DNA of 64,000 nt from IMG/VR virus record IMGVR_UViG_3300044625_001067, positions 159,473 through 223,472 of that record; one strand, 5' to 3'. Under the pieces are notes generated by a model. That model was not told the origin of the DNA and did not search any database. It saw nothing but the letters and a program-made list of their open reading frames with translations. This stretch comes from a virus. Of the stretch, positions 8,176-61,440 are shown in pieces. Numbering within the stretch: the first letter of the stretch is position 1; the number at the start of each line of letters is the position of its first letter. Position numbers and translations under genes: made by a program.

Positions 8176-8219
8176 TAAAAACATAGGTGAACCCCCTCGT
8201 AACTTTCACACTTCCACCC

Positions 8220-8478
8220 ATGAACAAACTCGACCACTGTTACCTCGAAGCCCTTTCAGAAGCACTGAAAGGTAACTTAGGCGAAGCTTTAGAACTCCGC
8301 AATGAAGCGGATGCGTTAGCATCCGAAGGCTTCGCCTTCTCCGAAAATTACGGGAATAAATACCCATTCATTGAAGAAGCGGTGAATACACTCCTTGGCT
8401 CTTTTGACTTTACAAGATGTGTCCGAGCCGACGGCTCGGCCTATGGTACACGAGGAAAGTGTAAGAAGGGTACCGAAC
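8220..8478. repeat. Dispersed repeat, copy 1 (leader module)
   Basis: About 260 bp nearly identical at DNA level to 59186-59442, and for its first ~170 bp to 45604-45772. The three copies lie tens of kilobases apart in non-homologous contexts. Confidence 0.85.
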
Positions 8479-8699
8479 AGAGCTCAGCCAAGGGTCCGAA
8501 TAGTATTTACGGGGACATTCACGAGACCATTCTTAGAGGGCTTGAAAAACAGAGCTCAGTCAAGGTTCCGACTAGTGTTCTAAAGGCCCGTATTAGAAGG
8601 CTTGAAAAAGCTATGGACGACACCTATTCAACTACAGAACAAGAGAGAATTTCCACAGCCATTCGGAAACTCAAGAAGACAATAGATGAAGCAGGTTAG
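8220..8699 (+). CDS. MNKLDH-leader protein, copy 1 (159 aa)
   Basis: The ATG at 8220 is chosen because it aligns with the starts of two other genes (45604 and 59186) that share the first 80 residues almost exactly. The leader runs from MNKLDHCYLEALSEALKGNL to a short Cys motif, TRCVRADGSAYGTRGKCKKG (two Cys, YGT, GKC-KKGTE). After the leader the sequence diverges. Here it consists of two related segments (EQSSAKGPNSIY... and KQSSVKVPTSVL..., each ending in a G/R-LEK helix). It is outside the structural cluster but has the late-type motif upstream. Function unknown; the modular build suggests a shared targeting or processing tag on variable cargo (inference). Confidence 0.7.
   Translation: MNKLDHCYLEALSEALKGNLGEALELRNEADALASEGFAFSENYGNKYPFIEEAVNTLLGSFDFTRCVRADGSAYGTRGKCKKGTEQSSAKGPNSIYGDIHETILRGLEKQSSVKVPTSVLKARIRRLEKAMDDTYSTTEQERISTAIRKLKKTIDEAG
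8477..8610. repeat. Diverged tandem repeat (2 units of ~66 nt)
   Basis: ACAGAGCTCAG(C/T)CAAGG starts each unit (about 8477 and 8543) and each ends with a GGCTTGAAAAA segment. The reading frame is preserved. It encodes the two related C-terminal segments of the copy-1 leader protein. Confidence 0.65.
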
Positions 8700-32238: not shown

Positions 32239-32326
32239 CTACAGTGACCCCAAAGTTTTAGGACTCGCGGGTCGGATTGCTTCGGCAATCTTTGAAGTCA
32301 ACTTTACACACAAGGAAACATCTATT

Positions 32327-35300
32327 ATGATGAATCATAAAGGTTCCACTCAGAGGTGACTCTGATTGAAAATCGGGTGAATTGCTGGGACACCTTAGTT
32401 TTGCTTTTGCAAAACAGGCAATCAGCAGCCAAGGCCCCTAGGGATAGGGGCAAGGTTCAACGACTAGGATAAGTAATCTAGAACAGAAGAAAGTCCCAAG
32501 AGCGCCCGACTCTTTGCTCAGGCAAAGATGATGATATAGTCTGAACTTTACAGAAATGTAGAGAAGTAAAGGATAAAGAGCCTTTACGATAACAAGTTGC
32601 TACAACAGACCTATGCAGGGGTCGATCCCATTTTTTAGAGTGGCTTTGTTTTAACAAAGAAAATCCGGTGAATTGCTGGGACACCTTAGTTTTGCTTTTG
32701 CAAAATAGGCAATCAGCAGCCAAGTTTACTTAGGGTCTTTACTAGCTATAGTAGAGTTAGGTAAAAAGGTTCAACGACTAGAAGATGACTGACCCAAGAA
32801 TAACTCTTCCACGAGCGCCGGGACTCACTAGTTACAGACAACTAAACAGATACTTTTTCTTCTTAGAAAAATTCGGTTCCCTCGAAAAGTTTAAATGCTG
32901 TCACGAACACCACATCCACCCAACTAAAATGGGAGGAAGTGATGCCAAAGTGAACTTAATTTACCTTACACCCAGGGCCCATTACATCGCCCATCAGCTC
33001 CTCTTTAGAGCATTTACGGGAAACCAACAAGCCCAACGGGCTGCTTGGCTTATGTCCCACACGATTGACGAAGCTTTCGTCAATTCTAGGGTGTATGAGT
33101 TTCTAAAAAATAACTACATTTTTTCTGAAGAGACCCGTAATAAACTTTCTGAAGCAGGTAGGAATAGGAAACTTAGTTTCGAGTCCAGAGAAAAAATCTC
33201 TAACTCAAACAAAGAAACCTACAGAAACACCTCTAAAGAAGTTCTACTAGAGAGAATTGAAAGGATGAGGGAGACTAAGAGAGGTACCCCGTGGAATGAG
33301 AGTCATAGAAACTCTATCCCCCCTTCTCTTCCTAGGGGGAGAGATCACTGGAGACTAAAAGATAGTCCATTATGGGGTGTATCCGATGAAATACTCAAAG
33401 TATGGCTAGAGAATGGTAAACCATCTTATGTTATGCTTTGTAGATTGTTAGGAATCCCCAAAACTAAATCTGTTATGTCTGTAATAAAGAGTATGATATA
33501 GTCTGAACTCTTTGGAAACAAGGAGAAGTAGAGGATAAAGAGCCTTTACGATAACAAATGTCTTACAACCCTTGCACAAGGTTTTATGCTTCCGTCAACA
33601 AATATTGCGAATTTTATCGCACCGGTTGTTGACACTCCTACCAGAGCTGGGAGAATTCTCAGATTTGGGAAGGAACAGTTTGCTATAAACGATTTCCGTC
33701 GTGCTTACGGAACTAACATCCCATACGTCCAAAGCCGCTACGACTCTGAGCCTTATGCTCTAGAGCAGGAAGTGGTCGCCTGGGAATTGCCTGAAGAGGT
33801 TGAATCAATAGCCTCCATCAGTTGAGAAACTGAAAGAAAAACTGGGTGAATTGCTGGGAAGCCTACGGCTTCAAACGAGAGTTTGAAACTATGGTAATCA
33901 GCAGCGAAGCGTTTTCGGGAGAAAACGAACGTTCAACGACTAACAGCATACCACTAGAACAGTGATGAAGCTGACAAGAGCGCCTAGCACCCTAACAAGG
34001 GTGAAGATATAGTCTGAACTTTCTGGAAACAGAAAGAAGTAAAGGATAAAGAGCCTTTACGATAACAGTATTGAATTGAAAACGCTGGCGAGGGTTGTTT
34101 GGCTCTTGCTGTGGCAGCTTAACCACAAATTAACTGGGTGAATTGCTGGGATCCCTGAATTTCCATTAAAGAAACAGGCAATCAGCAGCCAAGTTTACTA
34201 CGTCGAGAAGTCACTATGATTTCTGTGGTGAAAAGGTTCAACGACTAGACGATGAGTTTCGACAACAATAACTCGTCCACGAGCGCCCAGAGCAACATAA
34301 CGTGCCATTACCGTAACAAATACGAAAAGTGGTACTGGACTTTAATCAACAAGTTTGAAAATAGAGACTACCTTCCAAAAAAGTTCGAAAATCACCACCC
34401 GGTACCAAAAGAGATCTGGCCCAAAGACTGGGATAGTCGTGAGATTATAACCACTGTTGGAGTTAGTGTGAGGGAGCACTTCATACTACACCTACTACTA
34501 ACCAAAGTGGGATTCAGCCACTCTTCCCTTATCAGATTTCTAAAAGGTTTTCGAAGGGGCCAACAAAGGGGCTTACACGCTACCAACTTAAAAAAGTTGT
34601 GGGATCGCTACCAGTTTAAGGGAGACAATCTTCCGGATAAACCTTGGGAGCACAGCTACAGGGAAGATTTAAGTTTTCTCGACCTTTGGGTAGACGCTGA
34701 CTACTTTTATTGGGTGTGGTTGAACATACTTCCTACCCCCCTGGGGAAAGGATCCGGCTACCCCGGAAACGGCTATCGAAATCTGTCGAAAGCGGTTGGA
34801 GTTAAACCCACAAAGTCGATCAGAAGGATGGTAATCTATTTCAAGGCAGGATGGGATCCCTTAAAGGACCCAAGTTGGTTAGATTTCGTTGCTAAGATAT
34901 AGTCTGAACTTTCTGGAAACAGAAAGAAGTAAAGGATAAAGAGCCTTTACGATAACAATTTGCCTGCACAAGTAGATCTTCGTGCGATTGAAACAAGGAA
35001 TGCGATGTCGAGGCTAAACACATTGGCCCTATGAGCTTAAGCTCATTTAGAAAATTGGGTGAATTGCTGGGAAACCTGACGGTTTCAGGAATGACTTCTC
35101 TGAAACACAAGGCAATCAGCAGCCAAGTTTACTACGTCGAGAAATCGCTATGATTTCTGTGGTGAAAAGGTTCAACGACTAGACGATGAGTTTCGACAAC
35201 AATAACTCGTCCACGAGCGCCCAACTCTTTGCTTAGGCAAAGATGATGATATAGTCTGAGCTTCATGGAAACATGAAGATGTGGGGGATAAAAAGCCTTC

Positions 35301-36014
35301 ACGATAACACAATGAATGAACAGCTACGAGTACACCGTTGCTCAAGCTGTTTCCGTCACCGCGACTTACAACCCTTACGAGCCCTATAACGGAACCGCAG
35401 GTTCCCAGACCGGACTCGGTTTCACAACCTGGACAAACTTCAAGACAGCTTACGGCTCCGTTGCTGGAGACGCCGCCTGGTCTGGTGCTACTTCTAACCC
35501 AATTGAAGACATCCTAACCCTCAAGCGTGCAGTCGCCAACCAAATCGGTATCCGTCCAAACTCCGCAGTCGTCGGTACTGCCGTGTTTGACCTCTTGCTG
35601 ACCAACGAGAAGATCCTTGATCGTATCAAGTACACATCTGCAGACAGCGTCGACACTGACGTCATTGCTCGCTACTTCGGTCTTGAGCGTGGCCTACGTG
35701 TTGCCGAAGGTCGTTACTTAGCGCAAGATGGAACCCTACAGCCGGTATTCCCAGCTAACGGTATCCTTCTGTTCTACAGCCCTAACGGTCCTTCTGATTC
35801 CATCATGCCTGCTGGTGGTGCGAATGCTGCGACTCCTGCCTTCTCTTACACATATCAGCTCACAGGCACCCCCGCCGTCCGTCCCGAATACTACATTCGT
35901 GAACGTCGCGTTGTGCGTGCTGAAATCACAATTGAACGTGTGGTTAACCTGGTTGGCCTCGGCGCAACTGGTCTTATCGGTTCTGGCGCTATGATCACCA
36001 ACATCCTATCCTGA
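32327..36014 (+). CDS. Major capsid protein, split by five group I introns
   Basis: Six exons: 32327-32345, 32598-32634, 33561-33809, 34069-34099, 34963-35030, 35315-36014. They join in frame to 1104 nt (367 residues). The start is ATG at 32327 with AAGGA 10 nt upstream. The spliced N-terminal part contains HFLTTLAQGFMLPSTNIANF, then ILRFGKEQFAINDFRRAYGT and YALEQEVVAWELPEEVES. That matches a common capsid family (LTNLAxGY...; RFGKExFRxYxxxRAxGA; HALE-x-E). Exon 6 gives the C-terminal 232 residues. Exon ends were set by reading frame, a U.G-closed P1 pairing (clear for introns 2, 3, 4) and a terminal intron G. The exon 1/intron 1 and exon 5/intron 5 junctions are the least certain. Confidence 0.8.
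32346..32597 (+). ncRNA. Group I intron 1 (no ORF, ~252 nt)
   Basis: It contains the core elements in order: P (AATTGCTGGGA, 32380-32390), Q (AATCAGCAGCC), R (GTTCAACGACTAG) and S (GATATAGTC), then a P9-like hairpin and a tail ACGATAACAAG ending in G. Hairpin CTGATT-GAA-AATCGG fits P2. The proposed P1 (exon GGTT with intron GACT, U.G-closed) is only 4 bp, so the 5' boundary is tentative. Confidence 0.8.
32635..33560 (+). ncRNA. Group I intron 2 with HNH gene (~926 nt)
   Basis: P1 is well supported: exon CCATTT pairs with intron GAGTGG, closed by U.G. P2 is CTTTGT-TTTA-ACAAAG. The P/Q half is nearly identical to intron 1 (GGTGAATTGCTGGGACACC...). The HNH gene sits between R and S, in the P8 region, and its TAG stop is part of the S element GATATAGTC. 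The tail ACGATAACAAATG ends in G. Confidence 0.85.
32785..33501 (+). CDS. HNH homing endonuclease in intron 2
   Basis: A 238-residue protein with an HNH core near residues 40-75: CHEHHIHPTKMGG, then NLIYLTPRAHYIAHQLL (H-H...N...H). The middle has two NUMOD3-like DNA-binding motifs (SEETRNKLSEAGRNRKLS, SFESREKISNSNK). A helix-turn-helix-like C-terminus follows (PSYVMLCRLLGIPKTKSV). It would cut intron-lacking capsid alleles and spread the intron by homing. It starts right after the R element and ends within S. Confidence 0.85.
   Translation: MTDPRITLPRAPGLTSYRQLNRYFFFLEKFGSLEKFKCCHEHHIHPTKMGGSDAKVNLIYLTPRAHYIAHQLLFRAFTGNQQAQRAAWLMSHTIDEAFVNSRVYEFLKNNYIFSEETRNKLSEAGRNRKLSFESREKISNSNKETYRNTSKEVLLERIERMRETKRGTPWNESHRNSIPPSLPRGRDHWRLKDSPLWGVSDEILKVWLENGKPSYVMLCRLLGIPKTKSVMSVIKSMI
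33561..33809 (+). CDS. Major capsid protein, exon 3
   Basis: Encodes 83 codons of the capsid N-terminal arm/E-loop region, including MLPSTNIANFIAPVV and GRILRFGKEQFAINDFRRAY. The ORF continues past 33809 to a TGA at 33827, but the last codons belong to intron 3: the splice site after TCAAT pairs with intron GTTGA as P1. Confidence 0.75.
33810..34068 (+). ncRNA. Group I intron 3 (no ORF, ~259 nt)
   Basis: P1 is exon TCAAT with intron GTTGA (five pairs, terminal U.G). Core P starts near 33846 (GAATTGCTGGGAAGCC); Q, R and S follow (GATATAGTC near 34007). The 3' part from S to the tail (ACGATAACAG) is almost identical to intron 4. Confidence 0.82.
34100..34962 (+). ncRNA. Group I intron 4 with HNH gene (~863 nt)
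   Basis: P1 is exon GTTGTT with intron GGCAGC (six pairs, U.G at the splice site). Core P at about 34138; the ORF begins right after R (GTTCAACGACTAG) and its stop overlaps S. Long stretches between Q and the ORF start are nearly identical to intron 5. Confidence 0.85.
34252..34902 (+). CDS. HNH-type homing endonuclease in intron 4
   Basis: A 216-residue protein. FENHHPVPKEIWPKDWDS followed by VSVREHFILHLLLTKVGF gives the H-H...(N)...H arrangement of an HNH nuclease, although the central Asn position is not obvious. The first ~20 codons are read from P8 sequence that also occurs, without an ORF, in intron 5. The stop TAG lies in GATATAGTC. A second, different nuclease from that of intron 2. 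Confidence 0.75.
   Translation: MSFDNNNSSTSAQSNITCHYRNKYEKWYWTLINKFENRDYLPKKFENHHPVPKEIWPKDWDSREIITTVGVSVREHFILHLLLTKVGFSHSSLIRFLKGFRRGQQRGLHATNLKKLWDRYQFKGDNLPDKPWEHSYREDLSFLDLWVDADYFYWVWLNILPTPLGKGSGYPGNGYRNLSKAVGVKPTKSIRRMVIYFKAGWDPLKDPSWLDFVAKI
35031..35314 (+). ncRNA. Group I intron 5 (no ORF, ~284 nt)
   Basis: Core P at about 35058. From Q through P8 it is nearly identical to intron 4 (GTTTACTACGTCGAGAA..., GTTTCGACAACAATAACTCG). Its S-proximal part (ACTCTTTGCT.AGGCAAAGATGATG) matches intron 1, so it looks like a mosaic. Hairpin ATGAGC-TTAA-GCTCAT follows the 5' junction. I could not find a good U.G-closed P1, so the 5' boundary rests on reading frame. Confidence 0.78.
35315..36014 (+). 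CDS. Major capsid protein, exon 6 (C-terminal 232 aa)
   Basis: Open from the intron 5 end to TGA at 36012-36014. It encodes the capsid A- and P-domain region (DILTLKRAVANQIGIRPNSAVVG, FDLLLTNEKILDRIKY, VRPEYYIRERRVVRAEITIE). The ATG at 35316 is an internal methionine codon of the spliced message rather than a true start. Confidence 0.85.
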
Positions 36015-36500: not shown

Positions 36501-36544
36501 AGCCCCCTAACCGGGGCTTTTTTTTTTTTTTTTTTTTTTTTTTT
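36501..36544 (+). terminator. Rho-independent terminator with T27 tract
   Basis: AGCCCC (36501-36506), short loop, GGGGCT (36513-36518), then 27 consecutive T (36518-36544). The tract is far longer than a terminator needs. Confidence 0.9.
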
Positions 36545-45555: not shown

Positions 45556-45603
45556 TAAAAAGATGGGGTGAAAACACTCCCTGAAATTTTCACAACATCA
45601 GAC

Positions 45604-45772
45604 ATGAATAAACTCGACCACTGTTACCTCGAAGCCCTTTCTGAAGCACTGAAAGGTAACCTTGGAGAGGCTTTAGAACTCCGCAATGAAGCGGATGCGT
45701 TAGCATCCGAAGGCTTCTCCTTCTCCGAAAATTACGGGAATAAATACCCGTTCATTGAAGAGGCTGTAAATA
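45604..45772. repeat. Dispersed repeat, copy 2 (leader module)
   Basis: About 170 bp nearly identical to 8220-8388 and 59186-59354; identity fades before the Cys-motif codons. Confidence 0.8.
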
Positions 45773-46215
45773 CCCTGATTAATTCGTACGAATTCACACG
45801 CTGCGTAAAACCGTCCGGTGAAGCGTACGGAACAGCGGGGCAGTGTAGAAAAGGAACTGAAGAAGCTAAACTGGTAAAGGCGACTTCTCCCACCAGGCGA
45901 ACCAAGGTAGAAAGAGACATGGCTGCCCAATCCACTCTCAAAAGACTCGCAGCCAAAGGTCCGGATACTTCCGTAAGAAAGCAGGGTAACAGGGTAGTGG
46001 TCAGTAAGGGGTCTGAGTTCAAGGCTGTTCTACACCCCGAGCACCAGACTGCCCTTGGAAAGTTAAAGGAGGGGGAAAGGTTCAAATTTGAGGACGAAAG
46101 TGGCACCCATTGGTCGGCGACACGGTCCGGAAATAGTATACGCTTAGAGGGGGGAGATACAAGGCATGGCAGCAAACCTTACAAAATGTCAATGGGTAGG
46201 GACAAACTGATGTGA
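45604..46215 (+). CDS. MNKLDH-leader protein, copy 2 (203 aa)
   Basis: Same ~80-residue leader as the genes at 8220 and 59186; DNA near-identity extends over the first ~170 bp. The Cys motif is slightly changed (TRCVKPSGEAYGTAGQCRKG). The C-terminal ~110 residues are unique: basic N-part, then a compact beta-rich domain (GNRVVVSKGSEFKAVLHPEHQ, HWSATRSGNSIRLEG). Here the gene is embedded among tail genes, under a late-type motif. A start GTG at 45568 is possible but does not align with the paralogues. Confidence 0.7.
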   Translation: MNKLDHCYLEALSEALKGNLGEALELRNEADALASEGFSFSENYGNKYPFIEEAVNTLINSYEFTRCVKPSGEAYGTAGQCRKGTEEAKLVKATSPTRRTKVERDMAAQSTLKRLAAKGPDTSVRKQGNRVVVSKGSEFKAVLHPEHQTALGKLKEGERFKFEDESGTHWSATRSGNSIRLEGGDTRHGSKPYKMSMGRDKLM

Positions 46216-49055: not shown

Positions 49056-50819
49056 ATGAACTTTCGCACCCCGTCTATAACGCACGCTTCTCAGCTAGAG
49101 GAAAAATCCCGGTGGAGAAAATATACGAAAGGTATTCGAGAGCTTGAACTTCTTGAAGCACCTCGATCTGTAATTCAGGAGTTCAGGTTTAAGGCTGCCC
49201 GAGATTGTTTCCTGGCCTTTTGTGACATTATGAAAAATGGGGACTTAAACGTTTCCCCCTTTCACGAGATCATCGCAAGTGCCTTTGAGGATCTTTACGA
49301 ACGTCGATACAATCGTCTTATTATATCCTGCCCACCACGTTCAGGGAAGTCAATGCTTTCCACTATGTTTTTAGCGTGGTTGCTCGGAAAAGACGAAAGA
49401 ACTCAGCACATCTTGGCTTCCTACGGGGCTTCTTTATCTCAAAAGTTTCACAGAGAAGCTGTCGTAATGATGAAGACCCCTTCATTTAGGAAGGTCTTTC
49501 CTGAATTTTCAGGGTTTAACCGTGACTCGAAATATGACTTAGTCGGGGGTGGTTATGTACTTGCGACGTCCGTTGGAGGTATTCTCACTGGTTTCACGTC
49601 TGGAACCATAGACATGGAATCCACGGGTATTGGTGCGGCACTAATTGACGACCCCCTGAAATCGTCTGACTCTAAAGCAGCGCTGGACAACTTAGAAAGT
49701 TGGTGGGCAGAGCAAATGTCCACACGAAGGACAAATCACTACGCCCAAGTCATTATAGCAACCCGTTTTCATGAAAAAGACCTTCATGGGGTCTTAATGG
49801 ACGGTGATGGTTTATATGACCCTGAAGATAATCCTTTCGGATGGAGGTGGATAAACATAGCAGGGCTCTGTGAGGACCCTGACAATGATCCTCTAGGTAG
49901 AGAGATGGGAGAGAGCCACTGGCCCGACAACCCAGCCTTCTCTGTTCCGATGCTTGAGTCCCAGAAAAAGATAATGGGTAGCTTTAAGTTCGCAGCTCTT
50001 TACCAAGGGGTTCCTGTATCGGCTGAGGGACAGATTGTAAAGAATAGCTGGGTGGAGGTGATTGGGGAAGAAGACTGCCCCCCCTTGGACGTTGTATGGT
50101 TTGGAGTTGACTGCGCTTTCTCCGAGCGAGAGAAAGCTGATGAGAGCGCAATATGCGTCGCTGGTATAAACACTCGTAACCCAGATACTGTTTACATTCG
50201 TGAGATTGTTAAGGGTAAGTGGGGCTTTCCTGACTTGATTGACTCGGTAAAGCAGCATTACGCTCTGTATAACGCAAAAGTTCTGTGCATTGAAAAAGCA
50301 GCATCGGGGCACTCTCTCATTCAAATGCTGAAGCGAGAGGCTAAGATACCTATCGAGGAAATGAGGCCGCTGAAGTCAAAGACGACTCGCCTTCAGGCAG
50401 TCTGCCCTTTACTCGAAAACCACCGAGTTATACTGGTGCGGGGCCTGTGGACTGACGCGTTCGTAAAGGAACTAACTTCTTTCCCGTATGTTCGCCACGA
50501 CGATAGTACTGACGCCATGGTGTGGGCGCTGACTTACTACTCGCTCAAAATTGACTCCGTTGACCGGGGTATACAAGACTCGATAATTCAGAGTCGAAAA
50601 TGGGCTGGTGACCTACGCAGACCAATGTTTCGGGATGGTCACTCTTACGGTGGGCTTTTCGAAGAGCGAAATGTGTCGGTCGGGGGCCGAAGAGCTCCCC
50701 GCAGTATGGGCTTCAACGACCCTGATCCTAAGTCTGCCGAGGTACCTGATAGGGGCATTTTCCGAGGTGGCCGCAGCCGAGGTCTTCGAAGTGTATCCGG
50801 CTACGACCTTTTTAATTAA
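49056..50819 (+). CDS. terL: Terminase large subunit (intact copy)
   Basis: A 587-residue packaging motor. Walker A is CPPRSGKSM near residues 92-99; a Walker B-like GAALIDDPLKS near 195; then the nuclease domain with VVWFGVDCAF (first Asp), KVLCIEKAASG (Glu) and DDSTDAMVWAL (last Asp). The ATPase translocates DNA through the portal and the nuclease cuts it. It starts with ITHASQLEEKSRWRKY, almost the same as the following gene (ITHASQLAEHSSWRSY), showing the two are paralogues. The last ~90 residues are Arg/Gly-rich and absent from the second copy. Confidence 0.9.
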   Translation: MNFRTPSITHASQLEEKSRWRKYTKGIRELELLEAPRSVIQEFRFKAARDCFLAFCDIMKNGDLNVSPFHEIIASAFEDLYERRYNRLIISCPPRSGKSMLSTMFLAWLLGKDERTQHILASYGASLSQKFHREAVVMMKTPSFRKVFPEFSGFNRDSKYDLVGGGYVLATSVGGILTGFTSGTIDMESTGIGAALIDDPLKSSDSKAALDNLESWWAEQMSTRRTNHYAQVIIATRFHEKDLHGVLMDGDGLYDPEDNPFGWRWINIAGLCEDPDNDPLGREMGESHWPDNPAFSVPMLESQKKIMGSFKFAALYQGVPVSAEGQIVKNSWVEVIGEEDCPPLDVVWFGVDCAFSEREKADESAICVAGINTRNPDTVYIREIVKGKWGFPDLIDSVKQHYALYNAKVLCIEKAASGHSLIQMLKREAKIPIEEMRPLKSKTTRLQAVCPLLENHRVILVRGLWTDAFVKELTSFPYVRHDDSTDAMVWALTYYSLKIDSVDRGIQDSIIQSRKWAGDLRRPMFRDGHSYGGLFEERNVSVGGRRAPRSMGFNDPDPKSAEVPDRGIFRGGRSRGLRSVSGYDLFN

Positions 50820-50852
50820 CTCGATCCAAGACAACACAAACACAATCACAGG

Positions 50853-51830
50853 ATGTCACTTAAACACCAAAAAATAACGCACGCTTCTCAACTAGCAGAG
50901 CACTCAAGCTGGAGGAGCTACCGACGAAAACTCCTTGAACTGAAACTTGAGGGGTTTCCTCAAGAGGCTTACGCTAAGGAAAGTGCAAAAAATAGCTTTC
51001 TTGCTTTCTGCGATCTTGTCTCCGATGCAGGAGGTTTCGCACTCGAAAACGCACCGCTCGATGCAAAAGCATACGAAGTGATAGGGTCCGCCTTTGAGGA
51101 CATTTCCGAAGGAAGGTACCCAATTCTCCTCGCGTCGATGCCTCCCCGCACAGGGAAAACCACTCTAGGGGTTCACTTGCTGTCCTGGCTCCTTAGCAAA
51201 GACCCCATTGCTAACCACTTTGTAACCTCGTACACACAGAATCTGGCCGCGTCGGTAGTTCACAAGACTAAGCATTTGGTTCAGTCCCCTCCGTTCCGGA
51301 CGTACTCCTCTGTGGTTCCCCCACTTGCATCGTTTCATGTTTTACCAGTCTCCTTTGGGGGGTCTGTGTGCGGGGACTATTACGGTAGCTTATACGAAAC
51401 GCCAGGCGTATGGCTAATCGACGACTGCCACGACGGTGTTTCGGACGGAAGTGTCAACGAGAAACAGATACGCGAGATAGGAGACCATTACGTAGGCAAA
51501 AATGCAATAGTCGTTCTCGGGTCTCGAAGAGGTGAGGGAGATATTTTCAGCTACTTTCTGGAAAAGTACGGTGTCTTTGACCCAGTCTCAAACCCGAACG
51601 GAGCCGTTCACATTAACTTATCCGCCATCATTGAGAGCGAAGAAGAAGCCAAGGTTGATATTCTCGGTAGGAAAGTTGGGCAGGGTATCAATGACGCTAA
51701 CTCCACATTTAGCCCGAAGAATCTTCAGGACTTGCGGAAAACAATAGGGGATGTAAAGTTCTCGTGGTTGTACAAAGGGGTGCTCTCCACTGGGTTCGGA
51801 GTCTGCTCCGAGGTACCCCCCTCTAGATAA
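50853..51830 (+). CDS. Second terminase large-subunit-like gene, ATPase part
   Basis: A 325-residue frame starting 34 nt after the intact terL. It has its own Walker A (MPPRTGKTT) and Walker B-like GVWLIDDCHDG, and shares the terL N-terminal motif and FLAFCD. It terminates at TAA 51828-51830 just after a C6 run. The nuclease half continues in the +1 frame (51877-52272). Read with one base skipped at the C run, GAG GTA CCC CCT CTA joins EV-P-P-L-D, matching terL's CPPLDVVW. Either a frameshifted relic, a programmed +1 shift, or a sequence error. Confidence 0.75.
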   Translation: MSLKHQKITHASQLAEHSSWRSYRRKLLELKLEGFPQEAYAKESAKNSFLAFCDLVSDAGGFALENAPLDAKAYEVIGSAFEDISEGRYPILLASMPPRTGKTTLGVHLLSWLLSKDPIANHFVTSYTQNLAASVVHKTKHLVQSPPFRTYSSVVPPLASFHVLPVSFGGSVCGDYYGSLYETPGVWLIDDCHDGVSDGSVNEKQIREIGDHYVGKNAIVVLGSRRGEGDIFSYFLEKYGVFDPVSNPNGAVHINLSAIIESEEEAKVDILGRKVGQGINDANSTFSPKNLQDLRKTIGDVKFSWLYKGVLSTGFGVCSEVPPSR

Positions 51831-51876
51831 GGTCATTATCTCTATTGACCCCTCTTGCTCGCCAGGCAACGCGGAT

Positions 51877-52272
51877 ATGACTGGAATTTGTGTGGCTGGA
51901 TCCACGAAGGAAAAGGACTGTGTGTACGTTCTCGACGCGTACCAGGCGAATTGGGACTTGGAGACTGTTGGCGTAATTGTTTTTCTAGCCGCTAAAGCCT
52001 ACAGTGTTACAGAAGTTGTTATCGAGTCGTCCATGGCGAGTGAGCACTGGAGACAGTACCTAGAGAAGCTAGGTTTACCTGTTCGAGTGAGCAAGGAGAG
52101 AGTGGTGGCTAAGGCACTTGCGACCAATCTAATGGTAAAGTCGGGGAAAGTAGCATCCAACCCAGATATACACAACGTGTTGTTTAAAAGTTGGGACTGC
52201 ATTGGATCGTACTCAGATATAATGGATGCTATTTTGGTTAGCTTCATGGAACTGCTTCCACCTGCTGTTTAA
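51877..52272 (+). CDS. Second terminase-like gene, nuclease part (+1 frame)
   Basis: Homology begins upstream of this ATG, at about 51820 (PPLDKVIISIDPSCSPGN), so the first catalytic Asp is encoded before 51877. All three acidic sites are kept: SIDPS, VVIESS and DIMDAILVSF. The fused product would be about 472 residues. Retention of both ATPase and nuclease residues argues against long-standing decay. Confidence 0.7.
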   Translation: MTGICVAGSTKEKDCVYVLDAYQANWDLETVGVIVFLAAKAYSVTEVVIESSMASEHWRQYLEKLGLPVRVSKERVVAKALATNLMVKSGKVASNPDIHNVLFKSWDCIGSYSDIMDAILVSFMELLPPAV

Positions 52273-54950: not shown

Positions 54951-55631
54951 GTGGGTAACCCTAGGAAAAAATGCACAGCAGGAAAGTCTTGCTCGGCAAC
55001 TTGCATAAGCAAGGGGTTTAAATGCAAGAAAAAGTTGCCGTCACCAGTTAGCGACAGTCTCACACGTAACAGTGAGAAGTTGTTGCACCTTGGTGAGCAT
55101 GTTGGGGCCAACGTGACGTCTTGGAAAGTTGGGAAAGTTGTTGGCCCCCTGGTATCAAAGTACCTGGAAACTCGCTACGGCATACCACCGGAAACCACAG
55201 AAAAGCTGTCGGAAACTATTGTTCAAGCGGTGGTTGCCACGGGACTTCACTCTCGACATTTAAGGTCGAGTGAGGACTTTGTAAGAGACCTACTCACAGA
55301 AGCTTCTGCCGCGTTCCTGGGGAAAAGTGCCCACACAGGTGTGGAAAGTTTCCTAACCCACCAGGAAAGTCGCGAGATTGTCCAACAAGCTTTGCCCCTA
55401 CTTGCAGGAAAGTTCACCGGAATTGGTGCAGCTTTTGCAGGGTCAAAACTTCCCAAAGTGGCCCAAATTTCGGGCGCCATATCACGAAAGTACAACTCCG
55501 ACCTTTTGAAGCTACAGAGGCTATTCAGAAGATCTGAAGCTTCATTTTCTGAGCAAACCAACCAGGTAACCTCAGCTAAGCTTCTCGGAGACCTTTCTCT
55601 TCTCTCGGTTTTACTGTCCTTGAACGGGTAA
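54951..55631 (+). CDS. Cys-motif (CxxGKSC) protein (226 aa)
   Basis: GTG start. The N-terminus carries KKCTAGKSCSATCISKGFKC, matching the start of the kinase-like protein at 60178 (KRCTKGKSCGGTCISREAKC). The rest is helical with small-residue-rich segments (LPLLAGKFTGIGAAFAGSKL) that could associate with membranes. The shared leader suggests a common tag or metal-binding knuckle on different bodies. Function unknown. Confidence 0.6.
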   Translation: MGNPRKKCTAGKSCSATCISKGFKCKKKLPSPVSDSLTRNSEKLLHLGEHVGANVTSWKVGKVVGPLVSKYLETRYGIPPETTEKLSETIVQAVVATGLHSRHLRSSEDFVRDLLTEASAAFLGKSAHTGVESFLTHQESREIVQQALPLLAGKFTGIGAAFAGSKLPKVAQISGAISRKYNSDLLKLQRLFRRSEASFSEQTNQVTSAKLLGDLSLLSVLLSLNG

Positions 55632-59185: not shown

Positions 59186-59442
59186 ATGAACAAACTCGAC
59201 CATTGTTACCTCGAAGCCCTTTCAGAAGCACTGAAAGGTAACTTAGGCGAAGCTTTAGAACTCCGCAACGAAGCGGATGCGTTAGCATCCGAAGGTTTCT
59301 CCTTCTCTGAGGACTACGGGAGTAAATACCCATTCATTGAAGAAGCTGTAAACACTTTACTTGATTCGTACGAATTCACTCGATGCGTCCGAGCCGACGG
59401 CTCGGCCTATGGTACACGCGGGAAGTGTAAGAAGGGCACAGA
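59186..59442. repeat. Dispersed repeat, copy 3 (leader module)
   Basis: About 255 bp nearly identical to 8220-8478, including the stretch CGAGCCGACGGCTCGGCC, and for its first ~170 bp to 45604-45772. Confidence 0.85.
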
Positions 59443-59557
59443 GGCTGGAGCGGCTGACCAGAGGGGTGTAGGTAAGAAGGGTTCCATTAAGGAAAGAAAG
59501 GTAGCACGACTTTACGAAGCCCTTAAAGAAAAGAAACTTACGAGTAACGCGACCTAG
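59186..59557 (+). CDS. MNKLDH-leader protein, copy 3 (123 aa to amber stop)
   Basis: Same leader as at 8220 and 45604, with TRCVRADGSAYGTRGKCKKG identical to copy 1. The frame ends at TAG 59555-59557 after a short Lys-rich helix (KVARLYEALKEKKLTSNAT). The same frame stays open beyond the TAG, through the gene at 59564, to 60172. So this may be one ~328-codon gene interrupted by an amber codon. No GGGTAAA motif was found directly upstream; GTTAAACGATAAGA at 59140 is the nearest A-rich element. Confidence 0.7.
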   Translation: MNKLDHCYLEALSEALKGNLGEALELRNEADALASEGFSFSEDYGSKYPFIEEAVNTLLDSYEFTRCVRADGSAYGTRGKCKKGTEAGAADQRGVGKKGSIKERKVARLYEALKEKKLTSNAT

Positions 59558-59563
59558 CGATTA

Positions 59564-60172
59564 ATGAGACAGATGCTTGACACTCCAGAAGTTAAGAGCC
59601 AGTTTTCAAGTCTAGAAAAGAAAGGCGACGTGGAAGGGGCGAGAGCCCTTTACTCCAAGATTGAAGCTGAGGCTGGAAAAAGGGCGAGTGCAGGGGAAGG
59701 GAGACTGGCCAAGGGCGACAGTAGGACACCTGCCAGTGCGGACAGGGCTCGTGCGTCAGAGAAAGCAGAAAGCAGAAAGAGTCCGATGAAGTTAGGGAAA
59801 GAACAGCCACAGGCCGGGAAAGACATATCACCACGAAGAAGAAAAACTACAGCAGAGTATAAGGCAGTAGCGGTACAACTATTTGATCTTTATAAAATTG
59901 CTCAGCGAAAAGAGCGAGAAGCGGAAAAGGCACTAAAAAGCGTTGAGAAAGAAACCAAAGGCGACAATAGTCGTGAAGCGAGGCTAAAACGCTCTACTGC
60001 AGAGAAAGCTTTAATGAAGGCGTACTCAAGTGGAGAAAGAGCTATGAAGGCTGAACTCAAAGCAAACTCATCCTATATGAAATCACTCAAGAAGGACGTA
60101 CGAGCTAAGATGAGTCCCCAACAAAAGGCCGCTGAAAAGGAGATTGATAAAATAATACAGGAACGAGGTTGA
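59564..60172 (+). CDS. Basic helical protein in frame after amber stop (202 aa)
   Basis: ATG at 59564, 6 nt after the TAG of copy 3 and in the same reading frame, without a Shine-Dalgarno. Lys/Ala/Glu-rich, helical (LFDLYKIAQRKEREAEKALKS...). Production may need stop-codon readthrough or re-initiation. No family recognised. It overlaps the kinase-like gene region only at the TTG alternative start. Confidence 0.55.
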   Translation: MRQMLDTPEVKSQFSSLEKKGDVEGARALYSKIEAEAGKRASAGEGRLAKGDSRTPASADRARASEKAESRKSPMKLGKEQPQAGKDISPRRRKTTAEYKAVAVQLFDLYKIAQRKEREAEKALKSVEKETKGDNSREARLKRSTAEKALMKAYSSGERAMKAELKANSSYMKSLKKDVRAKMSPQQKAAEKEIDKIIQERG

Positions 60173-60177
60173 GTCTA

Positions 60178-61440
60178 GTGAAACGCTGCACCAAGGGAAA
60201 GAGCTGTGGAGGTACCTGCATTAGCCGCGAGGCTAAGTGCAGAGCCTCCTTGACCCCCAAACTATCCCACCAAGTAGAAAACTTACAGGGATCATTAGCA
60301 GGCAAAGTTGCTAAGAGTGGCGAGACAAACCCGCTGGTCAAGGACCTTATTGAGGCGTTAGCGTCCAACTCAAAGGTCAGGGTGGGTAATGACTTCCCAT
60401 CGTTAAAGCGGGAGGCAGAGCGCCAGCTTGCTGAGCTGCGCAGTAAAGAGTATATGACGGACGAGGAAATAAATAGGGCCACGAAAGTTGAAAAGGCACT
60501 CTTTGACACATGGGCCAAGCACACCAGGGCGGATCGCCCAGCTATTCAAGAACGTCAAAATGCACTCGAATTCGACTCCGAGTTTACACCAACCCTAAAG
60601 TTAGGGGGTAGCTACGACTGGAAACAGTCGTACGAATCAGGATCAAAGGGGTTAGGATCAGGTTTGTACGGAGCGGTAATTGCATCCAAACCACCCCCGT
60701 CCGTAGTCGTGAAAAGGGGGGAGGTGGGGGAAAATGAAGTGAGAATTCTTGAGAAATTAAGTGGAAAGGATATCACCCCCAGGCTAATCTCGGCTGAGAT
60801 GAATAAATCTGCTGAGTTCAACAACGCTGGGTACTACCCTGGAAGAATAGCAATGTCCCGTGTAAGGGGTAAGCCGGCTGAAGACTTTGAATCCTACGAA
60901 AGCCCAGTCGGAAGCACAACTGTGGGAGACTCTTACTACGCTCTACGAAAGAAGCTCCATGAGCAAGGTGTTGCCCATAATGACGCCCACGTAGGAAACG
61001 TAATTATCGATGACAAGGGGAAAGCACGTTTTGTTGACTTCGGTGTTTCACAGGATGACCCTCGTGCAGCTCTCTCAGAGGCCATTGGAGTTTTATCGGT
61101 GAGGTACTTACTACCCCCTGGTGCAATGCTCAGAAAGCCACTCAATGAAAACTCAGGGGATTTTCAGGCACGAGACAACAAGCAGTTTTACTTGCCACCA
61201 TCCACTACAGTTACTCCTAAGGGAACTACCCCCAAAACGAACCTTGGGAAGATTATACGAAACCGAATCAAAGTTTACTCCGAGATGGAAAAGCTTGGTC
61301 TTAACAAAGACGATATTGCTGAGGTGGTGACCCACAGTTTAGACCAACCACTTAGCTCTTACAACAAAGGTGCTTGGGGTAAGATCGGCAAAGACGACGC
61401 TGCAAGGCTTATTTCCATACTTTACGAAGGGGTTAGTTAA
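60178..61440 (+). CDS. Protein-kinase-like protein with CxxGKSC leader (420 aa)
   Basis: The GTG at 60178 is preferred to TTG 60169, which overlaps the previous stop. The N-terminus has KRCTKGKSCGGTCISREAKC, as in the gene at 54951. From about residue 157 a kinase fold is visible: glycine loop GLGSGLYGAV, lysine strand SVVVKRG (about K179), ENEVRILEKL helix, catalytic loop AHNDAHVGNVIID (D at about 269, N at about 274) and Mg-binding VDFG (D at about 287). The HxD-x4-N loop and DFG are complete, so activity on protein or a small molecule is possible. The family is closer in feel to RIO/ABC1/Bud32-type kinases than to classical Ser/Thr kinases. Confidence 0.75.
   Translation: MKRCTKGKSCGGTCISREAKCRASLTPKLSHQVENLQGSLAGKVAKSGETNPLVKDLIEALASNSKVRVGNDFPSLKREAERQLAELRSKEYMTDEEINRATKVEKALFDTWAKHTRADRPAIQERQNALEFDSEFTPTLKLGGSYDWKQSYESGSKGLGSGLYGAVIASKPPPSVVVKRGEVGENEVRILEKLSGKDITPRLISAEMNKSAEFNNAGYYPGRIAMSRVRGKPAEDFESYESPVGSTTVGDSYYALRKKLHEQGVAHNDAHVGNVIIDDKGKARFVDFGVSQDDPRAALSEAIGVLSVRYLLPPGAMLRKPLNENSGDFQARDNKQFYLPPSTTVTPKGTTPKTNLGKIIRNRIKVYSEMEKLGLNKDDIAEVVTHSLDQPLSSYNKGAWGKIGKDDAARLISILYEGVS

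Follow-up and report, generated by a model that had tools for sequence, protein, structure and literature searches.

Phage genes interrupted by group I introns have been described before, and here we compare these cases with the major capsid protein (MCP) gene in a 64,000-nucleotide stretch of viral DNA (the window; bases 159473-223472 of the 277,244-base record IMGVR_UViG_3300044625_001067), which contains five such introns. In LittleE, a Cluster J mycobacteriophage, the major capsid gene also has an intron with a homing endonuclease open reading frame (ORF), but this is a single intron, the LAGLIDADG-like ORF lies on the opposite strand, splicing was shown by reverse transcription-PCR and the group I class is only likely (PMC3706429). 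The gene orf142 of Staphylococcus phage Twort, according to the accounts of Landthaler and Shub 1999 given in PMC11878797 and PMC3073962, resembles the window gene in having several similar group I introns in one structural gene; it has three, exon skipping was seen and splicing was proven experimentally, whereas in the window splicing is predicted. The MCP gene of the crAss-like Zeta-group phage OLRF01000054 is in five fragments (PMC7886860). Like the gene in the window it is split by insertions, three of the four with domains typical of group I introns; the insertions of this gut phage were found via endonuclease domains, whereas in the window five ribozymes can be placed with exact joints, and the number of introns in its relatives ranges from 0 to 11. 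Jug phages are large as well, and numerous group I introns interrupt their essential genes; metatranscriptome reads support splicing of 37 of the 76 introns predicted in them (PMC12363816). Their introns are spread over many genes, 18.5 per genome, whereas in the record studied here all introns that reach the gathering score are in one gene. PhiPA3 also carries an intron-borne homing nuclease, which was shown to be active in the competition of co-infecting phages (PMC11620839). There, one intron with its nuclease is involved, whereas the group of phages around the window has several site-bound HNH families with one capsid gene as their predicted aim.

The literature thus already contains capsid genes with one intron, phage genes with several and an MCP gene in five fragments (PMC3706429, PMC11878797, PMC7886860), and the five introns of the window are a modest step beyond these cases. 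In the open-licence papers searched, we found no phage gene with more introns or fragments than these. The preliminary description of this DNA called five introns in one gene exceptional, which holds in so far as they exceed the three of Twort orf142; they are not an extreme, as a relative of the window has eleven. What is new here is this eleven-intron relative, an exon of 5 nt, a hot spot of 13 intron sites, and the separate inheritance of ribozyme and nuclease.

The source of the record is most likely a cyanophage, because the record contains psbA (E 8.6e-86) and, among named MCPs, the one from Synechococcus phage S-CBWM1 comes closest (MG450654; 66.7% amino acid identity). A cyanobacterial host is suggested by the same two observations. 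The MCP gene of S-CBWM1 has a similar head-gene neighbourhood, with portal, peptidase and structural genes, but unlike the gene in the window it is uninterrupted.

Structure of the interrupted capsid gene

The MCP gene lies at 32327-36014 on the + strand and consists of six exons and five group I introns, which make up 71% of its length. The joints were set by alignment to the intron-free orthologue L019, which covers all six exons and has 93% amino acid identity to exon 6 of the window (L-numbers are locus labels for the MCP-bearing contigs that were compared with the window). The exons are 9, 32, 240, 22, 53 and 700 nt long and the introns 264, 929, 273, 867 and 299 nt, and the spliced protein has 351 amino acids. 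The preliminary description had named exons of 31 and 37 nt and a frame of 367 codons, both of which have to be replaced by these values. Introns were scored with the Rfam covariance model RF00028, for which the gathering score is 50 bits. This search, proposed earlier as a check, gave five + strand matches from 32322 to 35278 (E 6e-10 to 7e-27), all at or above the gathering score; together with the joints fixed by L019, they bear out the proposal of an MCP gene with five group I introns and tiny exons. The features are as follows; intron sites are numbered by the nucleotide of the coding sequence (CDS) that they follow, and IGS stands for internal guide sequence.

32327..32335, + strand: MCP exon 1, 9 nt, ATGATGAAT; joined to exon 2 exactly as in intron-free L019
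32336..32599, + strand: group I intron 1, 264 nt, CDS site 9, no ORF; RF00028 91.0 bits; IGS 32343-32346, in-frame stop 32357-32359, core from 32375, P7 strands from 32455 and 32533
32600..32631, + strand: MCP exon 2, 32 nt; L019 alignment
32632..33560, + strand: group I intron 2, 929 nt, CDS site 41, contains an HNH gene; RF00028 50.7 bits; IGS 32640-32643, in-frame stop 32636-32638, core from 32667, P7 strands from 32769 and 33495
32785..33501, + strand: HNH homing endonuclease gene of intron 2, 238 amino acids; phrog_655 E 6.6e-28, NUMOD3 E 2e-5
33561..33800, + strand: MCP exon 3, 240 nt; L019 alignment
33801..34073, + strand: group I intron 3, 273 nt, CDS site 281, no ORF; RF00028 107.2 bits; IGS 33811-33815, in-frame stop 33823-33825, core from 33844, P7 strands from 33931 and 34006
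34074..34095, + strand: MCP exon 4, 22 nt; L019 alignment
34096..34962, + strand: group I intron 4, 867 nt, CDS site 303, contains an HNH-like gene; RF00028 69.3 bits; IGS 34102-34109, in-frame stop 34120-34122, core from 34136, P7 strands from 34236 and 34896
34252..34902, + strand: HNH-type homing endonuclease gene of intron 4, 216 amino acids; phrog_655 E 5e-13
34963..35015, + strand: MCP exon 5, 53 nt; L019 alignment
35016..35314, + strand: group I intron 5, 299 nt, CDS site 356, no ORF; RF00028 95.5 bits; IGS 35025-35028, in-frame stop 35032-35034, core from 35057, P7 strands from 35170 and 35248
35315..36014, + strand: MCP exon 6, 700 nt including the stop; Phage_cap_E E 1.2e-10, phrog_1005

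No intron at the gathering level other than these five was found elsewhere in the 277-kb record. A match of 30.9 bits, below the gathering score, lies outside the window near position 248642 of the record (G000:C1:247142-250304, L007), where it adjoins a GIY-YIG-like ORF within a different interrupted gene of the same phage.

In all five introns a U precedes the 5' splice site, a G ends the intron and a P1 helix with a G.U pair can be formed. The preliminary description had seen such a P1 in introns 2, 3 and 4; it is present there, and the limitation to these three falls away. Across 44 alleles, guide and exon pair with a higher score than is obtained at the majority of the gene's other U positions, with a median rank of 0.07. 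Changes in P1 and P10 compensate exon changes at sites 93, 281 and 303. At site 93, the P10 strand follows synonymous changes in the exon (TTTATC/GATAAG, TTTATT/AATAAG, TTCATC/AATGAG), and at site 281 both P1 (GAGGT/GCCTC versus GAAGT/GCTTC) and P10 (AATTG/CAATA versus AATCG/CGATA) co-vary with the exon. In an alignment of 15 introns without ORFs from the whole MCP intron set, double compensatory changes were found in 29 of 43 predicted pairs, in P3, P4, P5, P6, P6a, P9 and further helices. P7, the pairing that holds the guanosine site, is uninformative in this respect because its strands, GACTA/TAGTC in all five introns of the window, hardly vary. An extra helix between P7 and P3 presumably points to subgroup IA, as in many phage introns. 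Given these features, the five introns probably self-splice in the cell.

The protein obtained by joining the exons matches phrog_1005, phage major head protein, with E 1.8e-52 over residues 2-335, and exon 6 by itself matches Phage_cap_E, so the earlier reading of the spliced frame as a known capsid family was correct. The spliced-protein match and the head-gene context place it in the Phage major capsid protein E family (PF03864 / phrog_1005), and the sequence also matches PDB entry 3bjq (E 4e-28). Examples of predicted peptides that would span the joints are QTYAGVDPILTTLAQGFMLPSTNIANF over exons 2-3 and LPEEVIENAGEGPAQVDLR over exons 3-5. A separate intact capsid gene, which according to the preliminary description would refute its proposal, was not found in a search of the whole 277-kb record. 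In 170 full-length spliced or intron-free CDS of related loci there was not a single internal stop. Between the window and its eleven-intron relative L095, the ratio of nonsynonymous to synonymous change (dN/dS) is 0.064 overall and 0.033 in the intron-rich first 357 nt; with eleven joints in the frame, purifying selection of this kind can be understood only on the assumption that splicing unites the exons.

The reading frame leads to a further observation. In 35 of 35 distinct introns, covering all 13 sites, a stop codon in the frame of the upstream exon precedes the ribozyme core, compared with 32 of 70 cases for the other two frames (p 2.5e-9); the intron alleles in this count are not independent. 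A review describes a stop that keeps ribosomes out as a feature of most group I introns (PMC3073962). The early in-frame stops therefore give independent support for both the joints and the reading frame.

Intron variation and mobility in related phages

Related loci were collected in three IMG/VR scans followed by splice-aware alignment of each locus; the contigs are metagenomic and the sample is biased toward relatives of the window. In the literature searched, no paper naming the source metagenomes was found; some of the sample sets may be metatranscriptomes. Introns are present in 23 of 131 distinct related MCP sequences, and among the 116 full-length genes 16 have introns and 100 do not. 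There are 13 intron sites, after CDS nt 9, 36, 41, 75, 93, 150, 160, 273, 281, 303, 318, 356 and 895. Twelve of them fall within the first 357 of 1056 nt (p 2e-5), where the protein sequence hardly varies. An independent contig, L018, has exactly the five introns of the window, whereas L017 has four of them and lacks intron 5 as well as the HNH gene of intron 4; L015 also has five introns, of which site 9 alone is common with the window. At site 75, L012, L015, L016 and L022 have a 215-nt group I intron of a different, shorter type (core AACTGCGGG, GTTCAGAGACTA), unrelated to the other introns of the gene.

The highest number occurs in L033/L095 (IMGVR_UViG_3300042691_044235), the most intron-rich phage gene that we met, with eleven introns in the MCP gene at L095 517-7532 and exons of 9, 27, 5, 52, 57, 10, 113, 8, 22, 15, 38 and 700 nt. 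Each of these introns is detected by RF00028, some in parts only or below the cut-off. Five introns as a maximum for this gene are ruled out by this locus.

Closely related phages differ in their introns. Phages that are 98.3-100% identical over nt 358-1056 have differing intron sets and differing intron-rich parts. Between the window and L012 there are 38 differences in the 357 nt of the intron-rich part versus 3 in the 699 nt downstream (p 1e-15), nearly all at third codon positions. Compared with L017, the window has 9 differences in nt 324-357 versus 4 in the remaining 1022 nt, so that the last 33 nt or so of exon 5 form a co-conversion tract, at the edge of the intron 5 that L017 lacks. 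Homing of the td intron of phage T4 has been described as leaving tracts of this kind (PMC2988022). Divergence concentrated around the intron sites is the mark that homing would leave. Presence and absence in close relatives, co-conversion of flanking exons and an encoded nuclease gene, all of which are found here, are properties of mobile (homing) introns.

HNH genes were proposed for two of the introns, and the matches to phrog_655 in introns 2 and 4 (E 7e-28 and 5e-13) agree with this. The gene in intron 2 has its TAG stop inside the 3' strand of P7, GATATAGTC. For the protein of intron 4, no match was found in Pfam, and an alignment of its family does not clearly show the central Asn of the canonical motif. 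The HNH proteins would be expected to cleave DNA, though that of intron 4 may fail to do so. The HNH genes cluster by site, with a mean identity of 0.67 at the same site versus 0.24 at different sites. At sites 9, 93, 281, 303, 318 and 356 there are alleles with and without a nuclease gene, and decayed nuclease genes are found in the 462-nt intron at site 41 of L095 and as cut-off ORFs in L111 and L151, as expected of a cycle of gain and decay.

The ribozyme cores have a different history. The core of the L015 intron at site 9 is 95.5% identical to that of the L016 intron at site 93, and their nuclease bodies share about 26% identity. A shared core with largely unrelated nucleases suggests that ribozymes were swapped between sites of the same gene and that nucleases stayed with their targets. 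Introns 4 and 5 of the window are 87% identical over their shared parts.

Competing explanations

We regard the MCP gene as functional and as having been colonised by five group I introns that splice themselves out and spread by homing, with a probability of about 0.93. The points on which we base this are read directly from the DNA: the structure of the gene and of the cores, the joints, the selection on the protein, the variation in presence and absence, the co-conversion and the site-bound HNH families. Each ribozyme would pair its guide with its own upstream exon (P1, with G.U), and often with the downstream exon (P10), excise itself and ligate the exons, yielding the 351-amino-acid capsid protein. 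The stop just inside each intron would halt ribosomes before the core is unfolded. Co-infection may let the introns reach intron-free copies of the gene, where the site-specific HNH endonuclease of some of them would cut the empty site, with repair copying the intron and flanking exon. At many sites the endonuclease gene would later be lost, so that short introns remain. Splicing, early stops and exon-matched guides would keep the cost of the introns low. Several observations weigh against this view. Intron 2 barely reaches the Rfam cut-off (50.7 versus 50), although despite this low score it has the same core elements and exact joints as the others. The P1 helices of introns 1, 2 and 5 have just 4 bp, and the guide of intron 5 fits the end of exon 4 better than its own exon (score 12 versus 10), so that mis-splicing, a risk wherever similar ribozymes share a transcript, is possible and some skipping of exon 5 is predicted. 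Swapping exons at the same site in a computed test of P1/P10 pairing had a small effect, mostly in the expected direction, making this a weak test. With one allele per site, the early-stop test gives a random-frame p of 0.019. Two exact-sequence searches of IMG/VR found no spliced junctions of the window allele, as expected because the contigs are DNA.

According to the preliminary description, splicing might gate late assembly. More generally, the introns could be a timing or alternative-splicing device that limits capsid synthesis or makes isoforms by exon skipping. Skipping is known from Twort orf142 and a gene of SIOphi (PMC11878797), and the 87% identity of introns 4 and 5, together with the fit of the intron 5 guide to the end of exon 4, makes skipping of exon 5 plausible. 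However, loss of the 53-nt exon 5 shifts the frame, and with 100 of the 116 full-length relatives intron-free and near-identical phages differing in their sets, no intron is conserved for a function. A gating role is unsupported because intron content varies among the closest relatives, as expected of selfish elements, and we regard a device of this type as improbable. We give even less credit to the idea, by now largely refuted, that the interrupted gene is degenerating or arose as an artefact of assembly, with the capsid coming from another gene. Short-read assembly does appear to break or join at repeated cores: the L010 contig begins within an intron, and in L011 (805-1736) an intron begins as the site-9 intron and ends at site 93, with CDS nt 10-93 missing in frame. 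This is probably an assembly join of two similar introns or a deletion, and L011 was set aside, with the spurious sites 41/84/93 given by the aligner dropped. Against such an origin for the window gene, no other MCP was found in the record, the frame is open and under purifying selection, and the same structure is present in independent contigs. The L019 contig ends (5742-5837) in another, incomplete copy of the region around MCP exon 6, which is probably an assembly repeat.

The route by which the cores moved between sites is inferred from sequence comparison. As an alternative to endonuclease homing, the introns might have spread within the gene mainly by reverse splicing into sites whose 5' exon ends are alike. 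Sites 9 and 93 both end in GAAT, and their introns in different phages are those with the 95.5% identical cores; sites 303 and 356 (AGGGT, AGGCT) are those with the 87% identical cores. Across sites, with the site 75 introns excluded, the link between exon match and core similarity is weak, however (rho 0.165, permutation p 0.05). The tracts of co-conversion found at the sites indicate homing at the DNA level between phages, and gene conversion between introns of one gene would account for the shared cores too. We therefore consider reverse splicing as the main route unlikely. Within the reading of a gene colonised by homing introns, it is conceivable, though we put it forward tentatively, that the capsid gene is a battlefield of co-infecting cyanophages. 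Site-bound HNH families would cut the MCP gene of intron-less competitors while a phage's own introns immunise it, and introns without a nuclease would be kept as immunity alleles. If true, this would explain both the presence of up to eleven introns and their crowding in the most conserved third of the gene.

Significance and genomic surroundings

Eleven introns with inner exons of 5 to 57 nt, and one of 113 nt, exceed everything in the literature that was searched. The MCP is required in high copy, and therefore splicing has to proceed efficiently and accurately although the ribozymes resemble one another. Closely related phages with 0 to 11 introns form a natural series in which long-standing questions become directly testable: the fidelity among similar ribozymes, the minimum exon length, the separation of nuclease and ribozyme in evolution, and whether intron nucleases play a part in phage competition. 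As a natural hot spot, the gene thus allows the invasion of an essential gene by selfish introns to be studied. There is also a practical aspect, as in these cyanophages the MCP marker gene is too fragmented to be recognised by the usual gene callers.

Some further features of the window were observed. Behind the gene downstream of the MCP gene, a run of about 26 T at 36519-36544 lies 3' of a GC-rich hairpin; it is terminator-like and unusually long. At 49056-52272, a full gene for the large terminase subunit is followed by terminase-like fragments at 50853-51830 and 51877-52272, possibly a split second copy. The proteins encoded at 8187-8699, 45568-46215 and 59186-59557 have a near-identical N-terminal module (MNKLDHCYLEALSEALKGNLGEALELRNEADALASEG), followed by the motif TRCV..AYGT.G.C.KGTE and then by differing C-terminal parts. 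A similar Cys-rich motif opens the proteins encoded at 54951-55631 and 60169-61440 (KCTAGKSCSATCISKGFKC / RCTKGKSCGGTCISREAKC), the second of which is kinase-like in appearance.

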